A DNA stretch of 64,000 bases from Gordonibacter massiliensis (ex Traore et al. 2017) (GTDB taxonomy: Bacteria; Actinomycetota; Coriobacteriia; Coriobacteriales; Eggerthellaceae), in contig LT827128.1 in NCBI GenBank assembly GCA_900170005.1, forward strand, positions 3,530,168 to 3,594,167, given 5' to 3'. The notes below the pieces were generated by a model. The model saw nothing but the letters and a program-made list of their open reading frames with translations. It was not told where the DNA came from and did no database searches. Shown here in pieces: positions 32,603 to 47,266 of the stretch. Numbering within the stretch: position 1 is the stretch's first letter; every line of letters begins with the position of its first letter. The translations under genes were made by a program, and so were the position numbers.

Positions 32603-32707
32603 CAAATGGTGTTCGCTGGTCGGGATTTGTGGCACAATAGGACAGTTGACGTGTCGCGGGGCATGCTGCGCACGCGCAAGACACTGAATCGAACGAGGAG
32701 AACCTCC

Positions 32708-35416
32708 ATGGCGACAGCCCAGAAACCGAAGAAGAAGCCCGGCCGCACAACCGACCGGCGCAACGTCTGGCTCCTTATTGTCACGACCCTGCTCGTGGTG
32801 GGATCGATATTCATGTTCGCGCCTCCGCAGGAGAAGATCAACCAGGGCCTGGACATCCAAGGCGGCTTGTCGGTGGTTCTCACGGCGAAGGGCGCCGACG
32901 GGGCCGCCGTGTCCGCCGACGACATGGAGAAGAGCCGCGCCATCATCGAGAGCCGCGTGAACGCGCTGGGCGCCTCGGAGGCCGTGGTGCAGGTGCAGGG
33001 CAACGACCAGATCCTCGTGCAGATACCCGGCCTTACCAACACCGAGGACGCGCTCAACACCATCGGCAAGACCGGCAAGCTGGAGTTCGCGCGCCTCGAC
33101 TCGTTCACCGACAGCGACGTGAAGACGAAGATCGAGAACGGCCAGTTCGGCAACGAGGCCACCGTCACCGACGAGCTGGGCAACTCGCTGCCTTCCGGCA
33201 AGACCGAGCACCTGAAGGTTGAGAGCGGCACGTACACCCCGCTCGTCACCGGCAGCAACATCACGAACGTGTCCGTAGGCCAGGCCAGCCAGACGTCGAC
33301 CGACTACGCGGTGAACGTGAAGCTGGACGGCGCCGGCACCACGGCGTTCGCCGAAGCCACGAAAGAGCTCGCGCCCACAAAGGGCAAGATCGTCATCATC
33401 CTGGACGGGGAGGTGCAGTCGGCGCCTGCTGTGCAGTCGGAGATTCCGAACGGCGACGTGTCCATCACGGGCAACTACTCGCTCGACGAAGCGAAGTCGC
33501 TGCAGACCGTGCTGGAAAGCGGTTCGCTGCCCGTGAGCTTCGAGTACGCGCAGAGCCAGGTGGTGGGGCCGACGCTCGGCCAGGACGCGCTGGCGTCCGG
33601 CGTGCTGGTGGCGCTCATCGGCTTGGCCGTGGTCATGCTGTACCTGCTGTTCTTCTACCGAGGTTTGGGGCTTATCACGGCGGCGGCCATGGCCATCTTC
33701 GCCGTGCTGTATCTGGGCATCTTGGCCACGCTCTCCGCTTTCGGCCTGTTCAGCCTGTCGCTTGCGGGCATCGCGGGCGTCGTGCTCACCATCGGCATGG
33801 CGGCCGACTCGTCCATCCTCACCATGGAGCGCTTCCGCGAGGAGATTCGCATGGGCCGCAGCGTGCGCGCCGCGTCCATCACGGGCGTGCGCCACGCCAT
33901 CGTCACCTCGGTGGACGCCGACCTCGTGACCCTGGTGTCGGCGCTGTCGCTGTTCTTCCTGGCCAGCGCCTCGGTCAAGGGCTTCGGCCTGACGCTCGCG
34001 CTGGGCATCGTGTGCGACATCGTCATGATGCTGCTGTTCAAGGCTCCGCTCATCCGCCTGCTTGCGCCGAAGGTCATCGCGAAGCACCCCGGTTTCTGGG
34101 GTGTGAAGGACGCCGAGGCCGCCGCCAAGGACTACGAGGCGCTGGCTCTGGCCGAGGGCACGAGCACGGCCGCGGCCGAGGCCGGCGAGGCCATGGACGC
34201 CGCCGCCAGCGAGCGTTTGGCTGAGAAGCGCTCGGGTGCGGCCGGCGAAGAGGCCGCGCAAGCCGCGCGCAAGCCGCGCGGGCGCTTCATCAAGCACGAC
34301 ATCAACTTCCTGGGGTACCGCCGTATCTTCCTCACCGTGGCGGCGGTGCTGGTGTGCGCGTCGTTCGCCGTCGTGGGCTTCAAGGGCCTTAACTTCGGCA
34401 TCGAGTTCGTGGGCGGCACGTCCATCTCCTTCCACGGCACGGGCGACGTGACCACCGAGCAGCTGCGCACCGCCTTCGACCAGGCTGGCGAGCCCGACGC
34501 CGTCATCCAGACGACGAACGCCGACGGCCAGGAGGGCTTCCTCGTGCGCACCACCACCACGAGCGCCGAGGACGCCACGACGCGCGCGAACCAGGTGGCC
34601 GACGGTTTGGGCCTGTCCACGGACAGCTTCGAGGTCACCACCATCGGGCCCGACTGGGGCGCGAGCGTCATCCAGTCGTCGCTTATCGCGTTCCTCGTGT
34701 CCATCGTGCTCATCATCATCTACATCGCCATCCGGTTCGACTATAAGATGGGCGTCACGGCCATCGTGGCGCTGCTGCACGACCTGGTGCTGGTCATGGG
34801 CATCTACGCGCTGGTGGGCCGCGAGGTGAACCCGAACACCATCGCCGCGCTGCTCACCATTTTGGGTTACTCGCTCTACGACACGGTGGTGGTGTTCCAC
34901 CGTATCAACGACAACATGCAGGGCGACGACATCAAGTGCACGTTCATGACGATGGCGAACCACTCCATCAACCAGGTGCTCGTGCGCACCATCAACACCA
35001 CGCTCACCTCGCTCATTCCGGTGCTGGCCATGCTGTTCTTCGGCGGCGAGACGTTGAAGGACTTCGCGTTCGCCATGGCCATCGGCCTTGTCTGCGGCTC
35101 GTACTCGTCGGTGGCGGTGGCCACGCCGCTGTACGCCATGTGGAAGACGCGCGAGCCGCGCTACGCGAAGCTGCAGAAGAAGTACGGCACGCAGGTGGGC
35201 CGCTTCGAGTTCGCGAATCCGAACGCCATGGCGGTGGCTGCGGCGAAGGCGGGCGCTCCGAAGGCGGGCGGCACGCAGGTTGATGCGACGACTCCGTCAC
35301 CGGCTGCGACGGCCGGTCATGCAACTGCCGACGACAAGCCGCACGGCGCGAGCGCCTCGAAGGCGACCTCCAAACCGCCCAAGGCGAAGCGCAAGAAGCG
35401 TCCCGACAAGAAGTAA
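32708..35416 (+). CDS. secDF: Fused protein translocase subunit SecDF
   Basis: The 902-residue protein joins SecD and SecF. The SecD half (about 1-480) has an N-terminal membrane helix, GLDIQGGLSVVL, the large P1 domain and five C-terminal membrane segments. The linker is Ala/Glu-rich. The SecF half (about 530-830) begins RFIKHDINFLGYRRIFL, carries GIEFVGGTSISF and five segments. The tail is Lys/Ala/Pro-rich. SecDF uses the proton gradient to help pull exported proteins across the membrane. ATG 32708 follows CGAGGAGAACC. A terminator follows at 35447. Confidence 0.95.
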   Translation: MATAQKPKKKPGRTTDRRNVWLLIVTTLLVVGSIFMFAPPQEKINQGLDIQGGLSVVLTAKGADGAAVSADDMEKSRAIIESRVNALGASEAVVQVQGNDQILVQIPGLTNTEDALNTIGKTGKLEFARLDSFTDSDVKTKIENGQFGNEATVTDELGNSLPSGKTEHLKVESGTYTPLVTGSNITNVSVGQASQTSTDYAVNVKLDGAGTTAFAEATKELAPTKGKIVIILDGEVQSAPAVQSEIPNGDVSITGNYSLDEAKSLQTVLESGSLPVSFEYAQSQVVGPTLGQDALASGVLVALIGLAVVMLYLLFFYRGLGLITAAAMAIFAVLYLGILATLSAFGLFSLSLAGIAGVVLTIGMAADSSILTMERFREEIRMGRSVRAASITGVRHAIVTSVDADLVTLVSALSLFFLASASVKGFGLTLALGIVCDIVMMLLFKAPLIRLLAPKVIAKHPGFWGVKDAEAAAKDYEALALAEGTSTAAAEAGEAMDAAASERLAEKRSGAAGEEAAQAARKPRGRFIKHDINFLGYRRIFLTVAAVLVCASFAVVGFKGLNFGIEFVGGTSISFHGTGDVTTEQLRTAFDQAGEPDAVIQTTNADGQEGFLVRTTTTSAEDATTRANQVADGLGLSTDSFEVTTIGPDWGASVIQSSLIAFLVSIVLIIIYIAIRFDYKMGVTAIVALLHDLVLVMGIYALVGREVNPNTIAALLTILGYSLYDTVVVFHRINDNMQGDDIKCTFMTMANHSINQVLVRTINTTLTSLIPVLAMLFFGGETLKDFAFAMAIGLVCGSYSSVAVATPLYAMWKTREPRYAKLQKKYGTQVGRFEFANPNAMAVAAAKAGAPKAGGTQVDATTPSPAATAGHATADDKPHGASASKATSKPPKAKRKKRPDKK

Positions 35417-35663: not shown

Positions 35664-37079
35664 TTAGTTGAGCTTCCTCCGGGCGACCAGGGCACTGGAG
35701 ACGCCGAGGGCGGCCAGGGTTCCCAGAACGACGAACGGGGCGGTGTCGCCGGTCTTGGGCAGGCCGGCCTTGGACACCTGCACGAGCGGCGGCTGCTTGT
35801 CCGCAGGGTTGGTCGGGTTCACGGGGTTCACGGGGTCGACGGGGCCGACCGGCCGGGCTCTCACCGTGAAGTCCTGCGAGAGCGTTTCCGTCGCGCCGGT
35901 GCGCTGCCATCCCGTGCCGGCAACGTAGCGTTCTTGGGCGTACGTCGCCGTGACGGTGTAGCTGCCGGGTTCGCTCATCGTCGCGTTGGAGCGGTAGGGC
36001 GACGCAGCGGGGAAGCTGCCGCTCACGGTCGAGCCGATGGTCCAGGACACGGGCACGTAGCGCGTTTCGCCGTCCACGGTGCCCGGTTCGTCCTGACGAT
36101 GGCCCGTGGCCAGAAACGCCACGTCGTCGCCCGCGAGCAGGTCATCGTTGTCCAAGGCGAGCGCGTTTTGGTGCGCGTCGGCCTGCGGGGCCCAGCGGGC
36201 CGTAAGGAGCGCCCCTCCGTCGGGCATGGCGAACGTGTCGCCCGCGCGGTGAACGGAGCCGTCGTTCTCGAGCGTCCAGCCGGCGAACGCGTAGCCGGTC
36301 TTGGTGGGCTCGTCGGATGCCACCGTCACCGGATCGCCCGCGGCGTAGTTGTTGGCGTCGGTGGGCACGGTGCCGCCGTCGGCCCCGTTGCCGTCGTATA
36401 CCACCGTATAGCGTGCCGCCCACAGGGCGCGCAGTGACGTGCCGCCGAACGGCATGGCGAACGCTTCGCCGGCTTGGTAGACGGCGCCGGTGGCCGTGTC
36501 CTGCCATCCTACGAACTGGTAGCCGGGGCGCGTCCAGTCGGCCCCGACGCCTCCAGGGCCCACCGACGTTATGTCGCTCAGGTGAAGGGTTTGGCCTTCG
36601 CGGAGCTCGCCGCCGAAGGCGGAGGTGGTGTCGCCGGAGTCGTAGTTGCGGTAGTAGAGCAGCTGGTAGAGCTTGTCGAGCGTCGTTGCCGAGGCGGTGT
36701 CGGACATGTCGCTGCGGTTGCCGTTGTCGTCTACGGCTACGACGCGGTAATAGTAGGTCGTGTTCGGAACGAGGCCGACGTCCACGAACTCCGTCGACGT
36801 CGAGACGCCGATGAGCTCGTAAGGGCCCGGCTCGCTCGTGCTGCGGTACACCTCGTAGGTTTGGGCGCCGGCAACGGAACTCCAGGTCGTCACGATCGTG
36901 TCGGACGATTGCGCCTGCGCGTGCAGGTTCAAGGGCTTCTCGATGCTCGCGTCCGCTTCTGGGGACGGTTCTGCGTACGCTGCGGGGGCGAGCGTCGAGA
37001 ACGCCAGCAGCAGCGCGAGGGCGAGCGCCAGCGCGGCGCGCGCCGGAGAGGGGGCGGGCAAGGTGCGGATGTTGTGCAT
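35664..37079 (-). CDS. LPxTG surface protein 1 (FN3, InlB-type repeats, ATGxRQ module)
   Basis: The 471-residue protein has a Sec signal peptide, a fibronectin-III-like domain (about 45-130, with TTYYYRVVAVDDNGN), two InlB/Listeria-Bacteroides-type repeats (GYQFVGW and GYAFAGW), and one ATGxRQ module (FLATGHRQDEPG to LSQDFTV). A Pro/Asn/Val linker follows, then a cell-wall sorting signal LPKTGD, a hydrophobic helix and ARRK. It is presumably sortase-anchored; no sortase gene is in the window. ATG 37079 has GGAG upstream. It is the last and shortest of four tandem paralogues on this strand. Binding partner unknown. Confidence 0.88.
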   Translation of the reverse strand: MHNIRTLPAPSPARAALALALALLLAFSTLAPAAYAEPSPEADASIEKPLNLHAQAQSSDTIVTTWSSVAGAQTYEVYRSTSEPGPYELIGVSTSTEFVDVGLVPNTTYYYRVVAVDDNGNRSDMSDTASATTLDKLYQLLYYRNYDSGDTTSAFGGELREGQTLHLSDITSVGPGGVGADWTRPGYQFVGWQDTATGAVYQAGEAFAMPFGGTSLRALWAARYTVVYDGNGADGGTVPTDANNYAAGDPVTVASDEPTKTGYAFAGWTLENDGSVHRAGDTFAMPDGGALLTARWAPQADAHQNALALDNDDLLAGDDVAFLATGHRQDEPGTVDGETRYVPVSWTIGSTVSGSFPAASPYRSNATMSEPGSYTVTATYAQERYVAGTGWQRTGATETLSQDFTVRARPVGPVDPVNPVNPTNPADKQPPLVQVSKAGLPKTGDTAPFVVLGTLAALGVSSALVARRKLN

Positions 37080-37113
37080 AGGGGTCTCCTTCGTTCTTCG
37101 GGGAACGGTTAGC

Positions 37114-37128
37114 AATGCGGTGCGCATT
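37114..37128 (-). other. Leader hairpin of surface gene 1
   Basis: AATGCG-GTG-CGCATT lies about 35 bases upstream of the start codon. Its sequence differs from the hairpins at the same place in genes 2 to 4. Confidence 0.5.
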
Positions 37129-37293
37129 CATTATCCGAAGCGCGAACCGCCTGGCCGCGAGTCGTTTCCGGCGCGTCACGGCGCTTTCCGTATTGTTGTT
37201 TCGCCGTTGCCGGCCCGTGGGGGACGGGCCGCGCGTTCTCTTGCCGGGACGAGCATTGCGGCGTGAGGGCATTGCCCTGCCAGCTTGGGAAAG

Positions 37294-37327
37294 GGAAGGG
37301 CCCCGGCGAATGAACCGGAGCCCCTGT
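37294..37327 (-). terminator. Terminator after surface gene 2
   Basis: A GGGCCCCGG / CCGGAGCCC stem with two mismatches, followed on the minus strand by a pyrimidine run. Confidence 0.6.
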
Positions 37328-37375
37328 TCTCGTTGGCGCGAGCGCGCCGCTGTCACCGTCGTTTCAACGAGGGTG

Positions 37376-40201
37376 CTACTCGCGCATCTTCCTGCGCAGG
37401 GAGCGCACGCCCAGCGCGCCGGCGGCCGCCGCGACGCCCAAAAGGACGAACGGCACGGCCTCGTCGCCGGTCTTGGGCAGGAAGCCTATCTTCGACAGAG
37501 CTGCAGGCGCTCCCTTGGACGTGCCTGCGCTCGGTCCGCCGGCAGGGTTTTCACCCGAGCCGCCGCCCGTTTGCGGAATCCACTGCGCTACCAGGCGCGC
37601 GCCGCCTTCCGGCATGGCGAACGTGTCGCCGGAGCGGTATACCTTGCCGTCGTGATCGGCCTTCCAGCCGGCGAACACGTGCCCGGCCTTCGTGGGCTCG
37701 CCCGCCGCCACGGTCACGGCGTCGCCCTTAACGTAGGCGAGCGCATCCGCAGGCACGGTGCCGCCGTCGTGGCCGTTGCCGTCGTAGGTCACGGCGTACT
37801 CGGACGCCCAGACCGCGTACAGCGTCAGGGGTCCGTCCGGCATGTCGAAGGCGTCCATGGTGCCTTGGGTCGCGGAGCGGTCGGTGCTCCAACCCATGAA
37901 CCGGTAGCCGTCGCGGGTCCAGTCGTCGTGCACGGTGCCCACCGAAGCGATGTCGCTCGGCTGCACGGCGTCGCCTGCGGCGAAGTCGCCTCCGGGCGCG
38001 AACCACGCGTCTTCGGGCGTGTGGTTGCGCAGGTACGTGAGCGGATGGGCCTCTGCCTTCACGGTGAAGGGAACCGATATCATCTCAAGGTCGCCCATGG
38101 GATGCCATGCGTCCATGCCGGCGTCGTACACCCGCATGGCGAAGGCCGCCGTCAGAACGTAGCTGCCCGGGGTGACCATCACCATGCTGTCCGTGAAGGG
38201 GTGCTGGTTGGTGAAGGGCATGTGGTTCGAGAGAAGCGGCGTGATGGTCCACGACACGGGATCGTAGCGCGTTTCGCCGTTCACGTCGCCGGTGGCCTCT
38301 TGCCGGTCGCCCGTGGCCGTGAACCGAACCGCTTCGCTTACGGTTAGATCGTCGTCGTCGATCACGAGCGTGTTGTTGCCTTTGTCAGCCTGCTTCGCCC
38401 ATAGGGCAGTGAGGGTGATGCCCCCTTCGGGCATGGCGAAGCGGTCGCCGGGCTGGTACACATGGCCGTCTGCGGAGCTCTGCCATCCGGCGAAGGCGTA
38501 TCCGGACCCGGTTCTCGTGGGAGCTTCGGCGGGGATGTTCACCGGATCGCCCGCGAGGTACGCGCCGTTGTCGACGGGCACCGTGCCGGCATCGGCTCCG
38601 TTGCCGTCGTAGGTCACCGTGTACTCGGCTGCCCAGATGGCGTACAGGGACACGGGACCGTTCGGCATGGGGTAGTTGCCCATGACGCCCCCGTTGCCGG
38701 CGCGGTCGGTGTTCCAACCCACGAAGCGGTAGCCCGTGCGGGTGAAATCAGGGCCCAGCTCGGACACGTCGCTCAGGGGAACCAGCGTGCCGGCGGGGTA
38801 TTCGCCTCCCGGTGCGACGGTCGCGTCCTCGGGCGCGTGGTTGCGATAGTAGGACAGCGCGAAGGTGCGCTCCTTGACGGTGAGGTTCTCCGAGAGCGAC
38901 ACGCTGCGGCCCATGCGCTGCCAGCCGGTGCCCGCGACGTACTGCTCCAAGGCGAAGACGGCCTTTACGGTATAGTCGCCGGGCTGGTCGATGGCCACGC
39001 TCACCTTGTAGGGCGACGGGGTGGTGAAGTCGCCGTAGAGGTTCGTGGTGATGGTCCACAGCACGGGGGTGTAGCGCATCTCGCCGCTCACCGTGCCCGG
39101 CTCGTCCTGCCGGTCGCCCGTGGCCGTGAACGTGAACGGCTCGCCCTGGTACGGCTCATGGTTGTCCAGCACGAGCGTGTTCTTGCCGGAATCCGGCATC
39201 TCTCCCCAGAGGGCGACCAGGCTCACGCCGCCTCTCACCATGGGAACCTGCTCGCCGGGTTGATACACGACGTTCCTGTCCCGGTCCAGCCAGCCGCCGA
39301 AGGCGTAGCCGTCGGAGCGGGTCCAGTTGTCGCCCGGAACGCCCACCGAGGCGATGTCGCTGGCGGGCGCGAAGGAGTTTTCTTCGTAACTGCCGCCGGA
39401 CGCGGTGACCGTGTCGTCGGGTGTGTAGTTGCGCAGGTAGGTGAGCTCGTAGGTGTGCGCCTTGACGGTGAAATCGACCGAGACCGTCGCGGTGCTGTCC
39501 ATTGGTATCCAGCCAATGCTTGGAATGTATCGCTGCAAGGTGTAGGTGGCCGTGAGGGTGTAGTTGCCGGGTTGGTCGATGATCACGCTGTCTTTGTAGG
39601 GGGACGCGCTGGGGAAGAAGCCGGAAAGGTCCGACCTGATGGTCCACGACGTGGGAACGTAACGCGTGTCCCCGTTCACGGTGCCCGTGGCATCCTGGCG
39701 GTCGCCTGTGGCCGTGAACCCGAATCCCTCGTGCGCATACGGCTCGTAGTTATCCATCACGAGCGTGTTGTTGCCTGGATCGGCTTGCTGCGGAGGGAGC
39801 GCGTACGTTGTGGCGCTGACGGGGCTGGACTGAGGGCCCGAGCTGCCGCTGACAACGGCCGTGATAACGTAGTAGTAGGTCGTGTCCGGCTGTAACGCCG
39901 AGTCAACATAGTTCGTTCCCGTCGTCTGACTCGACTGTGTGTAAGGGCCGTTCTCCGATGTGCCGCGGTACACGTTGTAGCTGTCAGCGCCGGCGACAGG
40001 GCTCCAAGTCAGCATGATATCGCCGGGCGTGAGGGCGGAAGCCACGACGTTCGTGGGAGGGCCGGGAAGATCGGCATCTTGCGCGGACGAATCCGCGAAC
40101 GCGGCCAAGGGGAGCAGGGACAGCCCCAGCAGAAGCGCGAGCAGAATGGCGAGCGCTCGGCGTGCCGGGGGCGATGCGGATAGGGTGCGGATGGGGTGCA
40201 T
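37376..40201 (-). CDS. LPxTG surface protein 2 (three ATGxRQ modules)
   Basis: The 941-residue protein has a signal peptide, an FN3-like domain (about 45-135), then alternating modules: three copies of the ATGxRQ module (each from LVxD through RYxPxxWTI to FTVK, about 105 residues) interleaved with InlB-type repeats (GYAFGGW, GYRFVGW, GYAFAGW, GYRFMGW, HVFAGW). A Gly/Ser/Pro linker, LPKTGD, a hydrophobic helix and a basic tail end the protein. The last 110 residues are nearly identical to those of genes 3 and 4, also at DNA level, which suggests recent recombination. ATG 40201 follows AAGGAG. Confidence 0.88.
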   Translation of the reverse strand: MHPIRTLSASPPARRALAILLALLLGLSLLPLAAFADSSAQDADLPGPPTNVVASALTPGDIMLTWSPVAGADSYNVYRGTSENGPYTQSSQTTGTNYVDSALQPDTTYYYVITAVVSGSSGPQSSPVSATTYALPPQQADPGNNTLVMDNYEPYAHEGFGFTATGDRQDATGTVNGDTRYVPTSWTIRSDLSGFFPSASPYKDSVIIDQPGNYTLTATYTLQRYIPSIGWIPMDSTATVSVDFTVKAHTYELTYLRNYTPDDTVTASGGSYEENSFAPASDIASVGVPGDNWTRSDGYAFGGWLDRDRNVVYQPGEQVPMVRGGVSLVALWGEMPDSGKNTLVLDNHEPYQGEPFTFTATGDRQDEPGTVSGEMRYTPVLWTITTNLYGDFTTPSPYKVSVAIDQPGDYTVKAVFALEQYVAGTGWQRMGRSVSLSENLTVKERTFALSYYRNHAPEDATVAPGGEYPAGTLVPLSDVSELGPDFTRTGYRFVGWNTDRAGNGGVMGNYPMPNGPVSLYAIWAAEYTVTYDGNGADAGTVPVDNGAYLAGDPVNIPAEAPTRTGSGYAFAGWQSSADGHVYQPGDRFAMPEGGITLTALWAKQADKGNNTLVIDDDDLTVSEAVRFTATGDRQEATGDVNGETRYDPVSWTITPLLSNHMPFTNQHPFTDSMVMVTPGSYVLTAAFAMRVYDAGMDAWHPMGDLEMISVPFTVKAEAHPLTYLRNHTPEDAWFAPGGDFAAGDAVQPSDIASVGTVHDDWTRDGYRFMGWSTDRSATQGTMDAFDMPDGPLTLYAVWASEYAVTYDGNGHDGGTVPADALAYVKGDAVTVAAGEPTKAGHVFAGWKADHDGKVYRSGDTFAMPEGGARLVAQWIPQTGGGSGENPAGGPSAGTSKGAPAALSKIGFLPKTGDEAVPFVLLGVAAAAGALGVRSLRRKMRE

Positions 40202-40534
40202 GGGAATCTCCTTCATCCTTCGGGTGCGGGTAGCAATGTGACTTTCGCTACCCCATTATCCAGATCGTGTAGCCGATGTTCGCGAGGCGTTGCCGCTAGG
40301 GCGCGATCATTGCCGTACCGTTTCCCCGCCGTTGCCGTCGCGTTGAAAAAGAGGCGGTTTCGACCGAAGAATCAGATCGAAGCGAGCGAGCGCGGCGGCG
40401 GCCGAGGCCGAATCCGCGTGGTCGGGGAGCCATGAGGGGCTGCCCGTGCAACATAAAAGGGCCCCGGCGAACCGGAGCCCTTTCAATGTCACGGGTTGCC
40501 GCGCCGTATCGGGCGCGGTTGCCGCAGGCGAGCT
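40202..40534. other. Gap between surface genes 2 and 3
   Basis: 333 bases without a gene. It holds the gene 2 leader hairpin (GGGTAGC-N12-GCTACCC, 40228-40253), a block near 40310-40340 like those upstream of genes 3 and 4 (CCCCGCCGTTGCCG), and the gene 3 terminator at 40451. Confidence 0.65.
40451..40483 (-). terminator. Terminator after surface gene 3
   Basis: AAAGGGCCCCGG-CGAA-CCGGAGCCCTTT (one mismatch), then TTTTAT on the minus strand. Confidence 0.85.
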
Positions 40535-43500
40535 TTACTCAGCCTTCCTGCGCAGGGAGCGCACGCCCAGCGCGCCTGCGGCTGCCGCGACGCCCAGGAG
40601 GACGAACGGCACGGCCTCGTCGCCGGTCTTGGGCAGGAAGCCCGCCTTGGACAAGGCGGCCGGGGTTCCCGGCTTTGCGGGTTGGTTGCCGTTCGGCGCC
40701 GGAGCCGCCTGCGGGGTCCACTGGGCCACCAGGCGCGCGCCGCCTTCCGGCATGGCGAACGTGTCGCCGGCGCGGTACACCTTGCCGTCGTGGTCGGCCT
40801 TCCAGCCGGCGAACACGTGCCCGGCCTTCACGGGCTCGCCCGCCGCCACGGTCACGCCGTCGTCCTTCGCGTAGGCGAGCGCGTCGACGGGCACGGTGCC
40901 GCCGTCGTGGCCGTTGCCGTCGTAGACCACGGCGTAGGCGCCCGGAGCCCTCACGGTGAAGGGAGCCGAGAGCGACACGCACTGGCCCGTGGGATCCCAG
41001 GTGTCGCAGCAGATGTTGTAGAACTCCTCGACGTACACCGCCGTCAAGGTGTAGGTGCCGGGGGCGTTCGTCACGTAGCTGCCCGTGAAGGGATGCTGGT
41101 TGGCGAACGGCAGGAAGGGGAGGACCGATTCGATGGTCCACGACACGGGGATGAAGCGCGTCTCCCCGCCGGCGGAGCCCTGAACGTCTTGGCGATGGCC
41201 CGTGGCCGTGAACGTCATCGTGTCGCCCACGGTGAGGTCGTCGTCATCTATCACGAGCGTGTTCTGCCCCTGGTCGGCATGCTCGGCCCATAGGGCTTTG
41301 AGGTTCGCTCCGTCTTCCGTTATGTAAAACGAGGTGCCCGGCTGATGCACGCGACCGGTGAAGGTGTTCAGCCAGCCGCCGAACGTGTACCCGGTCTTCG
41401 TGGGCGTGTCGAGGGAAACGTCCACCAAATCGCCCACCACGTACTTGTTGTCGTCGACGGGCACGATGCCGCCGTCGGCACCGTCGCCGTCGTAGGTCAC
41501 CGGATACAAAAGGCCCCAGATGGCGTACAGGTCAAGCGGCTTGTCGGGCATGGGGTACCAGGTCGTGATGCCCCAGGCGTTCGTGGGGTCGTCGCTCCAT
41601 CCGAGGAACCGGTAATCGCTGCGCGTGTTCCAGTCCTCGTCGCCGGCGCCCACCGACGCGATGTCGCTCAGGGGAACGAGGGCGTTCGGCGCGAAGGCCC
41701 CGCCGTTCGCGGTAACGGGATCATCGGGGGCGAAATTGCGATGATAGGTGAGCGGGTTCGTCTGCTCCAGCACGATGAAGGGCTCCGAGAGGGTCGTGGT
41801 CTCGCCCGTCGAAACCCAATTGCCCAGGGAAACGTTGTATATCTGCTTGTCGAACATCACCGTCACCGACTGGACACCGAGGTTCAGCGCTACGGCGCTG
41901 CCCGTGAAGGGGTACCGGTCGGTGAAGGGAACGTCGGAAAACGGGTCGACGGACCAGGTGGCGGGCACGTAGCGCGTGTCGCCGTCGGCCATGCCCGCAG
42001 CGTCCTGGCGGTCGCCCGTGGCGGTGAACGAAACCGGTTCGCCCAAATACAGAACAAAGTTGTCCAGCACGAGCGTGTTCTTGCTTGCATCAGCTTCGTT
42101 CGCGCTGGATTGCCCGGACCATTGGGCCCCGAGCAAGACGTCGTTTTCCGGCATGGCGAACGTGTCGCCCGGCTGGTAGGTGGAGCCGTCGGAAAAGTTG
42201 AGCCAGCCGGTGAACGTGTGTCCGGGCCACACGGGGATGTTCGGCGACACGGCCACGAGGTCTCCCGCGAAATGGCTTTGGCTGTCCACGGGCACGGAGT
42301 CGGGGTTGGCGCCGTTGCCGAGGTAGAGCACTTGATGCGGGATCTCCCAGACGGCGGTGAGCTCGAGGGGCCGGTCGGGCATGAGGACCTCGGTGCCGGC
42401 GGACATCACCTGGCCGAACTCGTCTTGCCAGCCTACGAACTTGAGGTCGGGATGGGACCAGTCGGCGTGGTTAGTGCCAACCGACGTGATGTCGTCCAAG
42501 GTCACGTGGTCGCTTGCGGCGAAGTCTCCTCCGAGCTCGAAGAGGCTGCCGCCGCCAATGGGGTAATTGCAACGATAGAGAACGGGGTTGGTTTGCTGTA
42601 CTTCGCGCACGACGAAGTTGGTTGTGAGCGTCGCGTTCCCGCCTGTGTCCTTCCAGCTGTCAGACGCGCTGTCATAGGCCTGCTTGACGAAGAACGCCTT
42701 CAGCGTGTACGTGCCGGGATTTTGGATAACAACGCTTTCCGTGAAGGGGAACGTGTGCGAGAACGATACGTCGCGGTGGAGCGGCTCGATGGTCCACGAC
42801 ATGGGGAGATAGTGTGTTTCTCCGTTGGTGCCGCCCACCGCATCCTGTCGGTCGCCCGTAGCCGTGAACGACACCGCCTCGCCCGGGCGTAGGTAGTTCT
42901 TGTCCAGTTCCAGCGCGTTCTTCCCCGCGTCGGCGTTGTCGGCCCAGAGGGCGAAGAGCACAACGTCGCTCTCCGGCATGGTGAACGTGTCGCCCGGTTG
43001 AATCAGGCGTGCGGTTGCGGAGTTCAGCCAGCCGCTGAACGTGAGCTCGGGTCCGGGCCATGCGGGAACGGAAGACGACACGGTCACGGGGTCTCCCGGG
43101 AAGTATTTTTGGTCGTCTTCGGGCACGGTACCGTCGACGGCTCCGTTGCCCAAGTAGGTCACCTTGTTCGGGGCCTCCCAGACAGCTTGGAGCGCCGCCG
43201 CATCGTCGGGCATGGAGAACACGGTTCCGGCCTGGTATACCAGGCCATCGGCCGCGTTCCTCCAGCCCAGGAACCTCAGGTCGGATCGGGACCAGTCCAC
43301 GCCGCCGCCCACCGACGAGATGTCGGGGAGGGTCACGGGGTCATCTTGGAAAAAGGCTCCCCCAAGCTCGGAGAGCGTTTCGTCGCTGTCAGGGTAAACG
43401 CAGTAGTAGGTAAGCTCGTGCGCTACCTTGTCCGAAGGAGTTGTCGCCTCGAGGTAGTCGGACCAAACGCTGCGCGTCCCACCTATGCAGTAGTCGATAG

Positions 43501-43840
43501 CGTAGTAGTAAGTGGTATCTGCTTGCAACGGTTCATCGAGGTAGGAAAGGGTGTTGGAGGACACCTCATCGATCATGTCGTAGTCGCTTCTATCGGGATT
43601 GTAGCGGTATATCCCGTAAGATTCAGCGCCGGGCACGGCATCCCACGATAGAGAGACGGCGTACGGCGACATCGCCTGGGCCTCCACGTGCTCGGGCGGA
43701 TCGAGATACGCGCGCGACGCGGCATTTTGGTCGGCGAACGCGGTCAGAGGCAGCATCGAGAGCGCGAGCAACAGCGCAAGCAGGGCCGCCAGCGCGCGGC
43801 GCGCAGGGGGAGATGAGGGTAGGGTACGGGTTGTGTGCAT
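40535..43840 (-). CDS. LPxTG surface protein 3 (largest paralogue, three ATGxRQ modules)
   Basis: The 1101-residue protein has a signal peptide, an FN3-like domain (about 40-125, with VSLSWDAVPGAESYGIYR), three ATGxRQ modules alternating with at least seven InlB-type repeats, an Ala/Pro linker and LPKTGD with membrane helix and basic end. Its third module has the adjacent cysteine pair NICCDTW, shared with gene 4 but absent from genes 1 and 2. ATG 43840 follows AAGGAG. Repeated surface proteins of this kind often bind host glycans or proteins; no specific ligand can be read. Confidence 0.88.
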   Translation of the reverse strand: MHTTRTLPSSPPARRALAALLALLLALSMLPLTAFADQNAASRAYLDPPEHVEAQAMSPYAVSLSWDAVPGAESYGIYRYNPDRSDYDMIDEVSSNTLSYLDEPLQADTTYYYAIDYCIGGTRSVWSDYLEATTPSDKVAHELTYYCVYPDSDETLSELGGAFFQDDPVTLPDISSVGGGVDWSRSDLRFLGWRNAADGLVYQAGTVFSMPDDAAALQAVWEAPNKVTYLGNGAVDGTVPEDDQKYFPGDPVTVSSSVPAWPGPELTFSGWLNSATARLIQPGDTFTMPESDVVLFALWADNADAGKNALELDKNYLRPGEAVSFTATGDRQDAVGGTNGETHYLPMSWTIEPLHRDVSFSHTFPFTESVVIQNPGTYTLKAFFVKQAYDSASDSWKDTGGNATLTTNFVVREVQQTNPVLYRCNYPIGGGSLFELGGDFAASDHVTLDDITSVGTNHADWSHPDLKFVGWQDEFGQVMSAGTEVLMPDRPLELTAVWEIPHQVLYLGNGANPDSVPVDSQSHFAGDLVAVSPNIPVWPGHTFTGWLNFSDGSTYQPGDTFAMPENDVLLGAQWSGQSSANEADASKNTLVLDNFVLYLGEPVSFTATGDRQDAAGMADGDTRYVPATWSVDPFSDVPFTDRYPFTGSAVALNLGVQSVTVMFDKQIYNVSLGNWVSTGETTTLSEPFIVLEQTNPLTYHRNFAPDDPVTANGGAFAPNALVPLSDIASVGAGDEDWNTRSDYRFLGWSDDPTNAWGITTWYPMPDKPLDLYAIWGLLYPVTYDGDGADGGIVPVDDNKYVVGDLVDVSLDTPTKTGYTFGGWLNTFTGRVHQPGTSFYITEDGANLKALWAEHADQGQNTLVIDDDDLTVGDTMTFTATGHRQDVQGSAGGETRFIPVSWTIESVLPFLPFANQHPFTGSYVTNAPGTYTLTAVYVEEFYNICCDTWDPTGQCVSLSAPFTVRAPGAYAVVYDGNGHDGGTVPVDALAYAKDDGVTVAAGEPVKAGHVFAGWKADHDGKVYRAGDTFAMPEGGARLVAQWTPQAAPAPNGNQPAKPGTPAALSKAGFLPKTGDEAVPFVLLGVAAAAGALGVRSLRRKAE

Positions 43841-44165
43841 GGGAATCTCCTTCTTTGCGAGGATCGATAGGGCGTACAAAGTGGATTTGCTATCGATTCC
43901 GTTTCGTAAGTATTTATTAATTGTTTTTGTTGTGTCACGCAGATTGCCCGTTCGTTACCCCGGCGTTGTCGTATCGTTTAAAACGCACGGTCGGCCAAAA
44001 ACGAGGAACGAAAACCGAGAGCGCATGCTCAGCCTTTCCCATAAGGCTCCGCGTGGTCCCGTTCGCGCAAAGCAAAGGGCCGGAATCCATCCGGCCCTTT
44101 GCTTTGGGGCTGAAGCCCCTCGTTCGGCATCAACGCGGTTCAGCCGCGGCTTTTCTCAGATGGCG
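43841..44165. other. Gap between surface genes 3 and 4
   Basis: 325 bases without a gene. It holds the gene 3 leader hairpin (ATCGATAG-N19-CTATCGAT, 43863-43897), an AT-rich stretch likely to contain the promoter (about 43905-43935), the shared block CGTTACCCCGGCGTTGTCG at 43953, and the gene 4 terminator. Confidence 0.65.
44070..44105 (-). terminator. Terminator after surface gene 4
   Basis: A perfect 15 bp stem AAGCAAAGGGCCGGA with its inverse and a 5-base loop. On the minus strand it ends in GCTTTGCG. Confidence 0.75.
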
Positions 44166-46046
44166 TTACCCCTGGCTTCTCCTGCGCAGGGAGCGCACGC
44201 CCAGCGCGCCGGCCGCCGCGGCGACGCCCAGGAGGACGAACGGCACGGCCTCGTCGCCGGTCTTGGGCAGGAAACCCATCTTCGACAAAGCCGCCGGTGC
44301 GGCCTTGGAGCCGCCCCCGCTCGGCCCCGGTGCTGCCTTCGGAGTCCACTGGGCCACCAGGCGCGCGCTGCCTTCCGGCATGGCGAACGTGTCGCCGGCG
44401 CGGTACGTCTTGCCGTCGTGGTCGGCCCTCCAGCCGGCAAACGAGTAGCCGGTTCTCGTGGGCTCGTCGGATGCCACAGTCACCGTGTCGCCCTTCACGT
44501 AGGCGAGCTCGTCTACGGGCACGGTGCCACCGTCGTGGCCGTTGCCGTCGTATGCCACGGCGTATTCGGGAACCCATACGGCGTACATCGTCAGGGGCTC
44601 GTCGGGCATGACACCACCCATGGCGCCCTGCTCGGCAGTGCGGTCGGCGCTCCAGCCCATGAACCGGTAGCCGTCGCGGGACCAGTCGGCGCCGCTCACG
44701 CCCACCGAGCCGATGCTGCTGAAGGCCAGCGGGTCGTTCAGCCGGAACGTGCCGCCGGGTTGGACGGTCGCGTCATCGGGCGTGTAGTTGCGGTTGTAGA
44801 CGAGGTCGTGGAGCTGTCCCTTCACCGTGAAAGGCTTCGTGAGCGTGGTCGTGTTGCCTGTAGGCTCCCAGGTGTCGCAGCAGATATTGAAGAACTGCTC
44901 CTGGTAGACCGCCGTCACCGTGTAGCTGCCGGGCGTGCTCATGATGGCGCTGCTCCGGAAGGGGTAGGAGCTGTCGAAGGGAAAGGAGACTCCGTCGAAG
45001 ATCGGGGCGATGGTCCACGACACGGGGATGAAACGCGTTTCCCCGCCGGCAGAGCCCGTGGCGTCCTGGCGGTGGCCCGTGGCGGTGAACCGCACGGTGT
45101 CGCCCGCAGCGAGGTCGTCGTCGTCCAGTTCGAGCATGTTCTGGCCGGCGTCGGCGTGCTCGGCCCAGAGGGCTTCGAGGGTGGTGTCCTGCTCCGGCAT
45201 GAGGAACAGGCCGCCCGGTTGGCACACCCTTCCGCTAACGGGCTCCTTCCACCCGCCGAACGTGTACCCGGTTTTCGTGGGCGTTTCGCGGGGCACGGCC
45301 ACCTCTTCGTACGCGAGGTACTTGTCGTTGTCGACGGGCACGATGCCGCCATCGGCGCCTTTGCCGTCGTACGTCACCCGGTACAGGGAGCCCCATATGG
45401 CGTACAGCGACACCGCCTGGTTCGGCATGTCGTACTCGCCCATGAAAGCCGAGCTACTCAGGGGGTTGGTGTTCCAGCCTAGGAACCGGTAGTCCTCGCG
45501 GGTGTCGAAGTTGGCTTGCGAGGGTCCCACCGACGAGGCGTCGCTCAAGATAAATTTTTCTCCCTCGGCGAAATCGCCTCCGGGTGCGGAGACCGTGTCG
45601 CCGGAATCGAAGTTGCGATAGTAGGTCAGCGGGTGGGTCTGCACGGGCAGGGGGATCGTCGCGCTGGCGATGTTGGACGGGGGCCCTTCGATCTCGTCGT
45701 AGTACGAGGTGAGGTAGTAATAGTACGTCTCGCCCGGAATGGCGTTCGTGTCCATATAGGAGGTGCGCAACGGACGGGCTAACTCCTCCCAAGGGCCCTC
45801 TGCGGAACCGCTTCGGTATAGGATGTACTCGTTAAGGAGGGGTGCGGGACTCCACGTTAGTACGATGCCGTCGTCGGTCGGTGCCGCCACAACGTTGCTC
45901 GGCGGAACGGGCAGATCATCTGATCTCTCGGACGTCCCGGCGAACGCGGCCAAGGGGATCATCGAGAGCGCCAGCAGCAGCGCGAGCAGAACTGCGGTCA
46001 CGCGACGCGCTGGAGGCGATGCGGGCAAGGTGCGGATGGTGTGCAT
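44166..46046 (-). CDS. LPxTG surface protein 4 (first gene of the array)
   Basis: The 626-residue protein has a signal peptide, an FN3-like domain (about 40-130, with GIVLTWSPAPLLNEYILYR), InlB-type repeats (YRFLGW, GYTFGGW, GYRFMGW, GYSFAGW), one ATGxRQ module containing NICCDTW, and a C-terminal sorting signal LPKTGDEAVPF with helix and RRRS end. ATG 46046 follows AAGGAGAAAC. All four genes have their own terminators and leaders, so they are probably separate transcripts rather than one operon. Confidence 0.88.
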   Translation of the reverse strand: MHTIRTLPASPPARRVTAVLLALLLALSMIPLAAFAGTSERSDDLPVPPSNVVAAPTDDGIVLTWSPAPLLNEYILYRSGSAEGPWEELARPLRTSYMDTNAIPGETYYYYLTSYYDEIEGPPSNIASATIPLPVQTHPLTYYRNFDSGDTVSAPGGDFAEGEKFILSDASSVGPSQANFDTREDYRFLGWNTNPLSSSAFMGEYDMPNQAVSLYAIWGSLYRVTYDGKGADGGIVPVDNDKYLAYEEVAVPRETPTKTGYTFGGWKEPVSGRVCQPGGLFLMPEQDTTLEALWAEHADAGQNMLELDDDDLAAGDTVRFTATGHRQDATGSAGGETRFIPVSWTIAPIFDGVSFPFDSSYPFRSSAIMSTPGSYTVTAVYQEQFFNICCDTWEPTGNTTTLTKPFTVKGQLHDLVYNRNYTPDDATVQPGGTFRLNDPLAFSSIGSVGVSGADWSRDGYRFMGWSADRTAEQGAMGGVMPDEPLTMYAVWVPEYAVAYDGNGHDGGTVPVDELAYVKGDTVTVASDEPTRTGYSFAGWRADHDGKTYRAGDTFAMPEGSARLVAQWTPKAAPGPSGGGSKAAPAALSKMGFLPKTGDEAVPFVLLGVAAAAGALGVRSLRRRSQG

Positions 46047-46369
46047 GGGGGTTTCTCCTTCGCTTGTCGATGTGCGACAAAAAGACACGGCTTGGTTTCG
46101 CACCCAAACCGTGTCTCAAGTATTCATAAACTGTTTTGAACATGTCACGGAACTTCCGTATCGTTACCCCGGCGTTATCGGACCGTTGATAGGGAACCCT
46201 CGGTTCGCTAGCTGTCGATTTGAGGGACCGGCTGATAGAGAAACGGGGTTCGGGTCGACACCGATCCGGTGTAGAACGAGGAAAGCCCTGGATTTTCCAG
46301 GGCTTTCCGTGACAAGAAGATTTTCCGAACGCCACCTTGCCGATCTCGTGCCGTTAAATAACGCGCTTT
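46047..46369. other. Upstream region of surface gene 4
   Basis: 323 bases without a gene. Two overlapping hairpins can form near 46072-46115: GTGCGA with TCGCAC, and GACACGGCTTGG with CCAAACCGTGTC (one mismatch). Their arms interleave, so they exclude each other. The shared block CGTTACCCCGGCGTTATCG lies at about 46161, and the nitrilase terminator at 46280. Confidence 0.65.
46280..46308 (-). terminator. Terminator-like hairpin after the nitrilase gene
   Basis: GGAAAGCCCTGGA-TTT-TCCAGGGCTTTCC is a perfect 13 bp stem; the following T run on the minus strand is poor. Confidence 0.6.
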
Positions 46370-47266
46370 CTACTGCTTGAACCGCTCCTGGGCGGCCAGC
46401 TCGTTGTACCAGCGGGCGTAGACGCCGGGGCGGAAGTCCGGTTCTACGTCCACCCATTGCTTGGCCAAGAACGACTTGTCCACGTAGGACAGGTCGACGG
46501 TGCCCAGGTGCAGCTCCTGCTCGTCGGAGCCGGGCGCGCCGCAGGGGCCGCCCGCATAGTAGCAGATGGCGGGCACGTTCTTCCCGGGGCCTATCACGCT
46601 GCTGCCGCCCACGAAGTCGTCGGTGACGGCGCAACCGGTGCAGTTCGCCGAGGCGATGTACACGTCGTTGTTAGCGGCCAGGTACTCGAGCGAGTCTTTT
46701 ATGTTGCGGGCCGTGACGCCCGTGTTCACGGCGAACGGGTTCGCTATCAGGCGGCATCCGCTCGCGCGGTAGTAGCGCATGATCTCGGAGAACACGAACG
46801 TGTCGTAGCAGATGCTCACGCCCACGGGTCCCCACGGCGTGCCGAACATGAACGGCTCGTCGCCGCGGCCGGCCCAGGTGGACTCGGCCCCCGGCAGGTG
46901 CATCTTGCGGTAGCGGCCGAGCACGCCGTCGGGCCCGCAGGCCACGGCTGCGTTGTAGACGGTGCCGTCCTCGGCGCGCTCGGCCAGGCCGAACACGGCG
47001 TACACGCCCAAGCGGTGCGTGACCTCGGCCACGGCCTCCGTCGACGGCCCGGGGATGGGCTCGGCCAGGCGGTGGTGCATGCACGCCTCGCCTTCCGGGA
47101 CGGCCACGACGTCGTAGCCGGTGAGCGCCGTCTCGGGCAGCACCACCAGGTTCGCCCCGCGCGCGGCGGCGCATTCGATGTAGCCCGCGATGCGGTTCAG
47201 GTTGCGCTCCTTGTCGCCCCAGCGCGGCTCGAACGTGACCACGGCGACGTTCATGATGTCCTTCAT
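46370..47266 (-). CDS. Carbon-nitrogen hydrolase (nitrilase superfamily)
   Basis: The 298-residue protein has the Glu-Lys-Cys triad: Glu in VVLPETALTGYD, Lys in YRKMHLPG, Cys in VGVSICYDTF. A second Glu near the lysine region and normal domain length fit an amidase or carbamoylase. It hydrolyses a non-peptide C-N bond in an unknown small molecule. ATG 47266 follows GGAGGAAC. It lies 114 bases downstream of the MFS gene on the same strand, so uptake and cleavage of one substrate is likely. Confidence 0.88.
   Translation of the reverse strand: MKDIMNVAVVTFEPRWGDKERNLNRIAGYIECAAARGANLVVLPETALTGYDVVAVPEGEACMHHRLAEPIPGPSTEAVAEVTHRLGVYAVFGLAERAEDGTVYNAAVACGPDGVLGRYRKMHLPGAESTWAGRGDEPFMFGTPWGPVGVSICYDTFVFSEIMRYYRASGCRLIANPFAVNTGVTARNIKDSLEYLAANNDVYIASANCTGCAVTDDFVGGSSVIGPGKNVPAICYYAGGPCGAPGSDEQELHLGTVDLSYVDKSFLAKQWVDVEPDFRPGVYARWYNELAAQERFKQ

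Follow-up and report, generated by a model that had tools for sequence, protein, structure and literature searches.

A repeated immunoglobulin-like module with a predicted PKD-like fold in LPKTG surface proteins at a variable locus of Gordonibacter massiliensis

We examined a 64,000-nucleotide stretch of the Gordonibacter massiliensis (ex Traore et al. 2017) genome (contig LT827128.1, positions 3,530,168 to 3,594,167; hereafter the window) and focused on a module of about 100 residues, marked by the motif ATGxRQ, that is repeated in four proteins encoded there. The genome consists of one contig of 3,948,172 bases. The four genes are tandem open reading frames on the minus strand and encode surface proteins of 487, 946, 1114 and 645 residues (P0001 to P0004; Table 1). 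Each protein combines a signal-like start, a fibronectin type III (FN3) domain, InlB-type repeats (PF09479 and PF18998) and an LPKTG anchor motif, which is present in all four sequences. A hydrophobic stretch with A-x-A was read from the sequence at the four N-termini. Two proteins passed the Pfam cut-off of 25 for FN3, at 32.2 and 28.9 bits; the remaining two fell short of it, at 15.8 and 19.2 bits. The model TIGR01167 was above its cut-off in three of the four proteins (P0001 scored 15.2 against a cut-off of 15.9), Pfam Gram_pos_anchor was under its cut-off in all four, and the genome contained two matches to the sortase family PF04203, one above and one below the cut-off.

We detected eight module copies of 102–106 residues each, by motif and by profile, as the sequence-only reading of this DNA had counted; they are distributed as 1, 3, 3 and 1 copies over P0001 to P0004, and span positions 35862 to 45140, slightly beyond the 36000 to 45120 first proposed. 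Profile scores of the eight copies, which were among the sequences used to build the family profile, ranged from 121 to 144 bits, and the best other six-frame match in the window reached 3.6 bits; the repeat is therefore not a product of chance. Pairwise identity among the copies was 37–62%. The motif F-x-ATG-[DH]-RQ, previously called invariant, is indeed found in all eight, together with the first N, D6, P39, W42 and W87. The same had been said of WTI, which occurs in seven copies, the remaining one having WSV. Of the longer consensus first proposed, the ATGxRQ part holds, the start had to be corrected to N-x-L-x-[LMI]-D, and PGxYTxTA is only loosely kept (one copy reads LGVQSVTV). Modules alternate with InlB-type repeats as described before, with the exception of the first module of P0002, which comes after FN3. 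The adjacent cysteine pair that had been noticed in two copies was present in 2 of the 8 (module 3 of P0003 and the module of P0004) and in 3 of the 8 copies of Gordonibacter sp. 28C, and one orthologous pair of modules carries a third Cys.

Table 1. Coordinates of the genes, likely start codons and module copies in the window (positions of the window; aa, amino acid residues).
Feature	Position	Strand	Description
P0001	35664..37127	-	487 aa; signal-like N-terminus, FN3, two InlB-type repeats, one module, LPKTG
P0001 likely start	ATG at 37079 (MHNIRTLP)	-	based on common MH-x-x-RTL start and AAGGAG box
P0002	37376..40216	-	946 aa; FN3, module, InlB, module, InlB-InlB, module, InlB-InlB, LPKTG
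P0002 likely start	ATG at 40201 (MHPIRTLS)	-	
P0003	40535..43879	-	1114 aa as listed from TTG; FN3, three InlB-InlB-module units, InlB, LPKTG
P0003 likely true start	ATG at 43840 (MHTTRTLP)	-	
P0004	44166..46103	-	645 aa as listed from GTG; FN3, InlB-InlB-module-InlB-InlB, LPKTG
P0004 likely true start	ATG at 46046 (MHTIRTLP)	-	
Module of P0001	35862..36167	-	motif and profile
Module 1 of P0002	39464..39769	-	motif and profile
Module 2 of P0002	38876..39181	-	motif and profile
Module 3 of P0002	38060..38374	-	motif and profile
Module 1 of P0003	42608..42919	-	motif and profile; without orthologue in Gordonibacter sp. 28C
Module 2 of P0003	41771..42079	-	motif and profile; deviant, WSV and LGVQSVTV
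Module 3 of P0003	40952..41263	-	motif and profile; has CC pair
Module of P0004	44823..45140	-	motif and profile; has CC pair
secDF fusion gene	32606..35416	+	border of variable locus; name read from sequence
Nitrilase-like carbon-nitrogen hydrolase gene	46370..47266	-	other border of variable locus; name read from sequence

We scanned the four proteins and 14 module sequences, and no model of Pfam or NCBIfam passed its cut-off over the module. With matches admitted up to E 10, one of the 14 modules matched PKD (PF00801; E 0.015, 15.7 bits against a cut-off of 23.5), two matched Big_3_5 (PF16640, cut-off 35.5 bits; best E 0.0059), one matched Big_4 (E 0.02) and one matched Filamin (E 0.0011). 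These four are Ig-like (immunoglobulin-like) sandwich families, and the weak matches to them are hints of the fold. Single matches to StcE_b-sandwich, BsuPI, Nepo_coat_C and Pur_DNA_glyco (E 0.047–0.25) were taken as noise. The MucBP model was listed neither for the four proteins (E up to 1) nor for the 14 modules (E up to 10); the best stretches of the InlB repeat models PF09479 and PF18998 fell on the neighbouring domains, with none for the 14 modules alone. We found no sequence relative of the module in the PDB: the only matches of the A3 profile were to SH3 (E 0.76 and worse) and were taken as chance, and the A1 profile had none. A search of the genome with PF00801 at E 0.001 gave one match elsewhere and none at the module cluster. 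P0001 had no match in a PADLOC scan, and its residues 62–439, a stretch running from FN3 to the module, matched phrog_31 (E 3e-8); we attribute this match to FN3, since the 14 modules alone gave nothing better than E 0.14 among the PHROGs, which have no cut-offs. Finally, among the titles and abstract starts listed from the open literature on Gordonibacter LPXTG or surface proteins, adhesins or internalins, on Eggerthellaceae sortase and on Eggerthella PKD, we saw no description of these proteins. The repeated domain is real, none of the libraries scanned has a family name for it, and it is new as a sequence family.

We then modelled the fold. The AlphaFold2 model of a single module, built from 16 sequences (from the window, sp. 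28C and G. pamelaeae only), had a predicted local distance difference test score (pLDDT) of 91.0 and a predicted template modelling score (pTM) of 0.81. It is all beta, with eight strands (residues 11–14, 18–20, 24–30, 44–53, 57–60, 67–72, 77–91 and 95–112), and describes a V-set-like Ig sandwich in which strand A is split and strands F and G are long, in agreement with the earlier suggestion of a beta-sandwich with a conserved loop. In Foldseek searches against the PDB, PKD-like collagenase domains came first (E 1.0e-3 and up; 1224 matches listed, none below E 0.001). With VIA-align, the single module matched the ColG domains at Z 9.3–9.6 (root-mean-square deviation, rmsd, 2.2–2.5 over 82–84 residues, 19–20% identity) and 2c26 at Z 9.7, in a part that we take to be a PKD-type domain. 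A second, separate model, of an InlB-InlB-module unit, was built from 9 sequences (pLDDT 92.5, pTM 0.70); the top five VIA-align rows of its module part were all PKD-type (Z 9.7–10.0, rmsd 2.2–2.4, 84–91 residues), and its first repeat matched the InlB B-repeat 2y5p (Z 8.0, rmsd 2.1, 69 residues). The InlB B-repeat (PF09479) is a neighbour of the module in the same proteins but a different domain, a beta-grasp fold according to the available part of PMC8900821. Foldseek against the viral library returned five matches below 0.001, including three phage outer capsid proteins and one Big-1 protein. These predictions give good support to the Ig-like nature of the module, and among the Ig-like kinds they favour PKD without doing more than that; a fold match of this sort identifies a kind of sandwich and is not proof of descent. 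The idea of an undescribed domain consequently survives for the sequence family and not for the fold, which by prediction is an ordinary PKD-like Ig sandwich: no named domain was matched at the sequence level, and a named kind was found at the fold level.

We compared the module with PKD-like domains residue by residue. For those of collagenases, the available part of PMC4356367 reports a split strand A, long F and G strands, and a core Phe and Trp conserved across kingdoms; the stretch D-x-D-G-x-I-x-x-Y-x-W-D-F-G-D-G goes with strand C, strand F is preceded by G-x-Y, and the D-x-D contributes to holding a calcium. Over 16 modules (8 from the window and 8 from sp. 28C), F18 and W42 were each present in all 16, both in register with PKD by hhalign, and the G-x-Y of a Tyr corner before strand F was found by sequence in 14; F18, W42 and G-x-Y70 coincide with PKD core residues reported in that part of PMC4356367. 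In predicted fold and sequence, the module has in common with the collagenase and archaeal S-layer PKD-like domains (4aqo, 2y72, 4jrw, 4tn9, 4jgu and 1l0q) the V-set-like sandwich with split strand A, the Phe of strand B, the Trp of strand C, the G-x-Y before F and the long F and G strands. Unlike them, it lacks the WDFGDG turn (W-x-[FWLY]-G-[DN]-G in 0 of the 16), lacks D-x-D in 14 of the 16 (the two exceptions being one orthologous pair), stays below the Pfam cut-off, and has a B-C loop of the form G-x-RQ...G...G and, in some copies, a CC pair which by alignment with the model would lie at the tip of the F-G hairpin, where a vicinal disulfide is possible.

Profile comparison pointed in the same direction. 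Fourteen modules against 13 PKD sequences gave a score of 22.3 over 53 columns (E 0.0024), in an alignment that pairs F18 with the Phe of strand B, W42 with the Trp and P-G-x-Y with G-x-Y; FN3 and InlB scored 10.8 and 13.4. No column shuffle of the module alignment reached the PKD score (0 of 100 and 0 of 150), and 38 of 100 reached that of FN3. The PKD references came from other members of the phylum, outside the same bacterial family: 30 loci yielded 15 sequences by the W-x-F-G-D-G pattern, a selection which biases the set to canonical PKD, and 13 of these were used after hand-trimming (one duplicate and one other left out). The Pfam PKD matches within the family were rejected as references: in the frames seen (some of 14 loci) they read F-S-x-D-x-G-x-T-W, not classical PKD, and seem to be another Ig-like domain, which we presume may be the molybdoenzyme dimer domain.

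The module could still belong to PKD or Big_3_5 as a genuine member of that Pfam family, missed through divergence and with nothing special about it, a reading we hold to be possible and rather doubtful. The single PKD and two Big_3_5 matches among the 14 modules speak for it, as do profile scores above all shuffles for both families and the preference of the fold search for PKD. It has to contend with a best PKD score well short of the cut-off, the missing W-x-F-G-D-G and scarce D-x-D, and the genome search with PF00801, which found one other place and not the module cluster. Big_3_5 resembles the module as an Ig-like family with a profile similarity over 68 columns, but the module Trp is not aligned to a Trp in it, and its best E was only the value given above. 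Since the tested defining features fail, we did not file the module as a PKD domain, and regard it as PKD-like in its predicted fold and not as a PKD member.

The model also places the conserved motif: strand B ends with A-T, and the B-C loop (model residues 31–43) begins with G-x-R-Q. Each of the three aligned distant relatives (described below) has both A20 and G22; none of them has R24 and Q25 together, and one keeps the Q. F-x-A-x-G therefore looks like a part of the fold core and RQ like a lineage feature. An A-D linker stands directly before 15 of 17 modules. In the isolated model, the linker (residues 1–7) had pLDDT under 50, and in the unit model the linker block had a mean pLDDT of 94 and included a three-residue helix. 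The B-C loop of an Ig fold lies at its N-terminal pole. From this pole, the conserved A-D and a linker that is confident only in the unit model, we infer that the RQ loop may dock on the linker.

We consider it probable that the module is a divergent PKD-like Ig sandwich serving as a structural stalk block, with the RQ loop at the joint. Under this proposal, the four proteins would be sortase-anchored, rod-shaped surface proteins, with a rapidly changing FN3 domain on the outside, the LPKTG anchor at the other end and, in between, sandwiches of PKD-like strand order in alternation with InlB-type beta-grasp repeats. Within the motif, A-T would close strand B as part of the fold core, G-x-R-Q would pack on the conserved A-D linker and fix the joint with the preceding domain, and the number of units would change through gain and loss. 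FN3 is presumably outermost because the anchor is C-terminal, and it changes fastest on average (see below). A predicted fold is now assigned to a main building block of four Gordonibacter surface proteins.

Several results weigh against this proposal. On the side of the fold, the ColH PKD domains reached only Z 8.2–8.6 in VIA-align, and non-PKD Ig-like chains reached Z 8–9.3 (up to 9.0 with the single-module model); the hhalign probability for PKD was 12%, and the Big_3_5 score of 19.0, obtained with four clean sequences (10 extractions, 6 apparently from a wrong frame or place), was near that of PKD and likewise above all 150 shuffles. Foldseek on the whole unit put the SraP binding region first (4m00 and 4m02, E 6e-4 and 7e-4), not PKD. 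SraP, in the available part of PMC6973325, combines a lectin-like fold with one beta-grasp module and two cadherin-like ones; across the full unit the superposition is poor (rmsd 13.3 and 10.1), and we see in it an analogy of layout and claim no homology. On the side of the joint, the docking of the RQ loop on the linker is itself conjectural, and the low linker pLDDT of the isolated module may be a chain-end effect only. Finally, two observations would be in keeping with a binding site as well: no other domain of these proteins is as well conserved as the module, and of its 102 positions the 17 that are invariant over the 16 modules comprise 5 of 13 in the B-C loop against 12 of 89 outside it (one-sided Fisher P 0.04, uncorrected). 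The tests of module conservation are themselves weak (one-sided P 0.049 and 0.018, uncorrected, on few domains).

The conservation data come from the comparison with Gordonibacter sp. 28C. Seven of the eight modules have an orthologue there (61–91% identity). Mean orthologue identity was 78.6% for the modules, 66.3% for 15 InlB-type repeats and 48.8% for four FN3 domains, omitting module 1 of P0003, with 6 aligned columns, and three InlB-type stretches, with 1, 4 and 35; one FN3 row was kept that rests on 50 aligned columns. The ratio of nonsynonymous to synonymous substitution rates (dN/dS) of the seven module pairs was 0.12–0.68; six of them were below 0.5, and the highest belonged to module 2 of P0002. 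Module 1 of P0003 has no orthologue in sp. 28C (its best match was 49% identical, with dN about equal to dS), and a unit was therefore gained or lost at this place.

The same data have to be read with a second explanation in mind, which we find unlikely: that the module is the ligand-binding part of an adhesin, its B-C loop G-x-RQ-x-x-x-G-x-x-x-G pocketing a glycan, a peptide or a metal, and its repetition giving avidity. A module that is most conserved while FN3 and the InlB-type repeats diverge, with invariant residues enriched in the B-C loop, would suit a binding site, and in the available part of PMC4356367 that loop takes part in calcium binding by collagenase PKD-like domains, with a possible additional weak interaction with collagen in the case of ColH. 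Nevertheless, the D-x-D is missing from all modules but the one orthologous pair, the RQ pair is absent as such from the distant relatives, and P0001 and P0004 have a single copy, which argues against avidity. Ligand binding by ATGxRQ has no direct support.

A bolder version we regard as a rather remote prospect: a new Ig-like family restricted to Gordonibacter and close kin, in which the calcium loop of a PKD-like ancestor was rebuilt as an invariant G-x-RQ...G...G, either locking the module to the preceding linker or binding a host or dietary ligand, and in which the CC pair of one subgroup could form a vicinal disulfide and hence a second binding tip. Gordonibacter is a genus known for dietary polyphenol conversion, and a ligand of the loop, if there is one, would offer a starting point for understanding how these bacteria are retained in the gut.

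We searched for the module in other genomes (all counts include our own genome). In our genome there were nine matches, eight in the window and one distant copy at C1:2951700. The module was present in 3 of 60 genomes of the genus and its neighbours, in 5 of 138 of the family, in 7 of 396 of the class at E 0.01 (with one broken and one doubtful copy) and in 1 of 396 of a phylum sample; the class and phylum searches scored at most 12 first-look candidates per genome, and distant copies can be missed in them. Three of the five Gordonibacter genomes have it, including G. pamelaeae (G002) and sp. 28C (G003), and no module was found in the genus genomes G001 and G004. A scan of a contig collection, covering ATGxRQ-pattern sequences only, gave three loci. 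In the three intact distant relatives an L-A-x-T-G anchor motif follows 18–26 residues after the module, and one of these proteins also has a cadherin-like sandwich domain. In the genomes searched, the module has a narrow distribution: apart from Gordonibacter, only a small number of distant copies occur, which stand before an anchor in members of the same family and do not keep the RQ pair. In the G116 protein, a Filamin match partly covers the module (22.1 bits against a cut-off of 26.9). The class-search match in G281 (E 0.008) reads as an unrelated Ig-like/TIG stretch and was not counted. The consensus query had no match in phages and plasmids, and nine stretches of viral contigs that matched the one ATGxRQ pattern scanned encoded no relative; on these searches we rejected a phage or plasmid origin.

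The distant copy ends a second kind of long surface protein, found in our genome (C1:2951700) and in G099, where the protein showed no Pfam domain at E 0.01. The gene beside it reads as a metallo-beta-lactamase-fold sulfatase. A broken copy of the same distant gene occurs in G097, its module interrupted by a stop and a change of frame.

The module genes of the window are flanked by a secDF fusion gene on one side and a nitrilase-like gene on the other, both present in all five Gordonibacter genomes and 87–97% identical in the other four (97% and 95% to sp. 28C). The content between them varies: four module genes here, five in sp. 28C, one in G. pamelaeae and none in G004, where the two flanking genes are under 100 bases apart. 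In G001, the site holds about 17 kilobases with a response regulator (LytTR domain) and an unrelated surface protein of 3377 residues. We found no module in this protein, which has ten stretches of FN3, matches CBM_X2 and carries an LAPTG anchor motif. One site of surface variation in the genus can thus be empty, hold one, four or five module genes, or hold a giant FN3 protein (five genomes), and we infer that it is a hot spot for surface-protein genes.

Long repeats also connect the cluster genes. A block of 181 bases is common to the ends of P0002, P0003 and P0004 (37357–37537, 40513–40693 and 44147–44327), with 70% and 82% identity to the reference copy, and a block of 271 bases occurs seven times in the cluster (61–84%). 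Since these blocks recur among the genes, recombination between them is likely. The variable locus and these repeats would accommodate proteins that are mainly antigenic or phage-facing decoys, the cluster being a source of surface variation and the module a filler kept by paralogue recombination, but this is very improbable for modules that look under purifying selection in proteins where variation is highest in FN3.

The intergenic gaps hold hairpins with T runs, and terminator-like sites are not above chance (7 vs 7.7). Three of the four genes have an upstream array of three AACG copies, one every 11 bases; this array had 8 matches genome-wide against 12 for the reversed control, and we claim no regulon. 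The array belongs to an upstream block common to the gene starts on the minus strand (37080–37300, 40210–40350, 43840–43980 and 46050–46190). GTGACA-18-AATACT follows the array before P0003 and P0004, and similar upstream blocks were observed at the sp. 28C genes.

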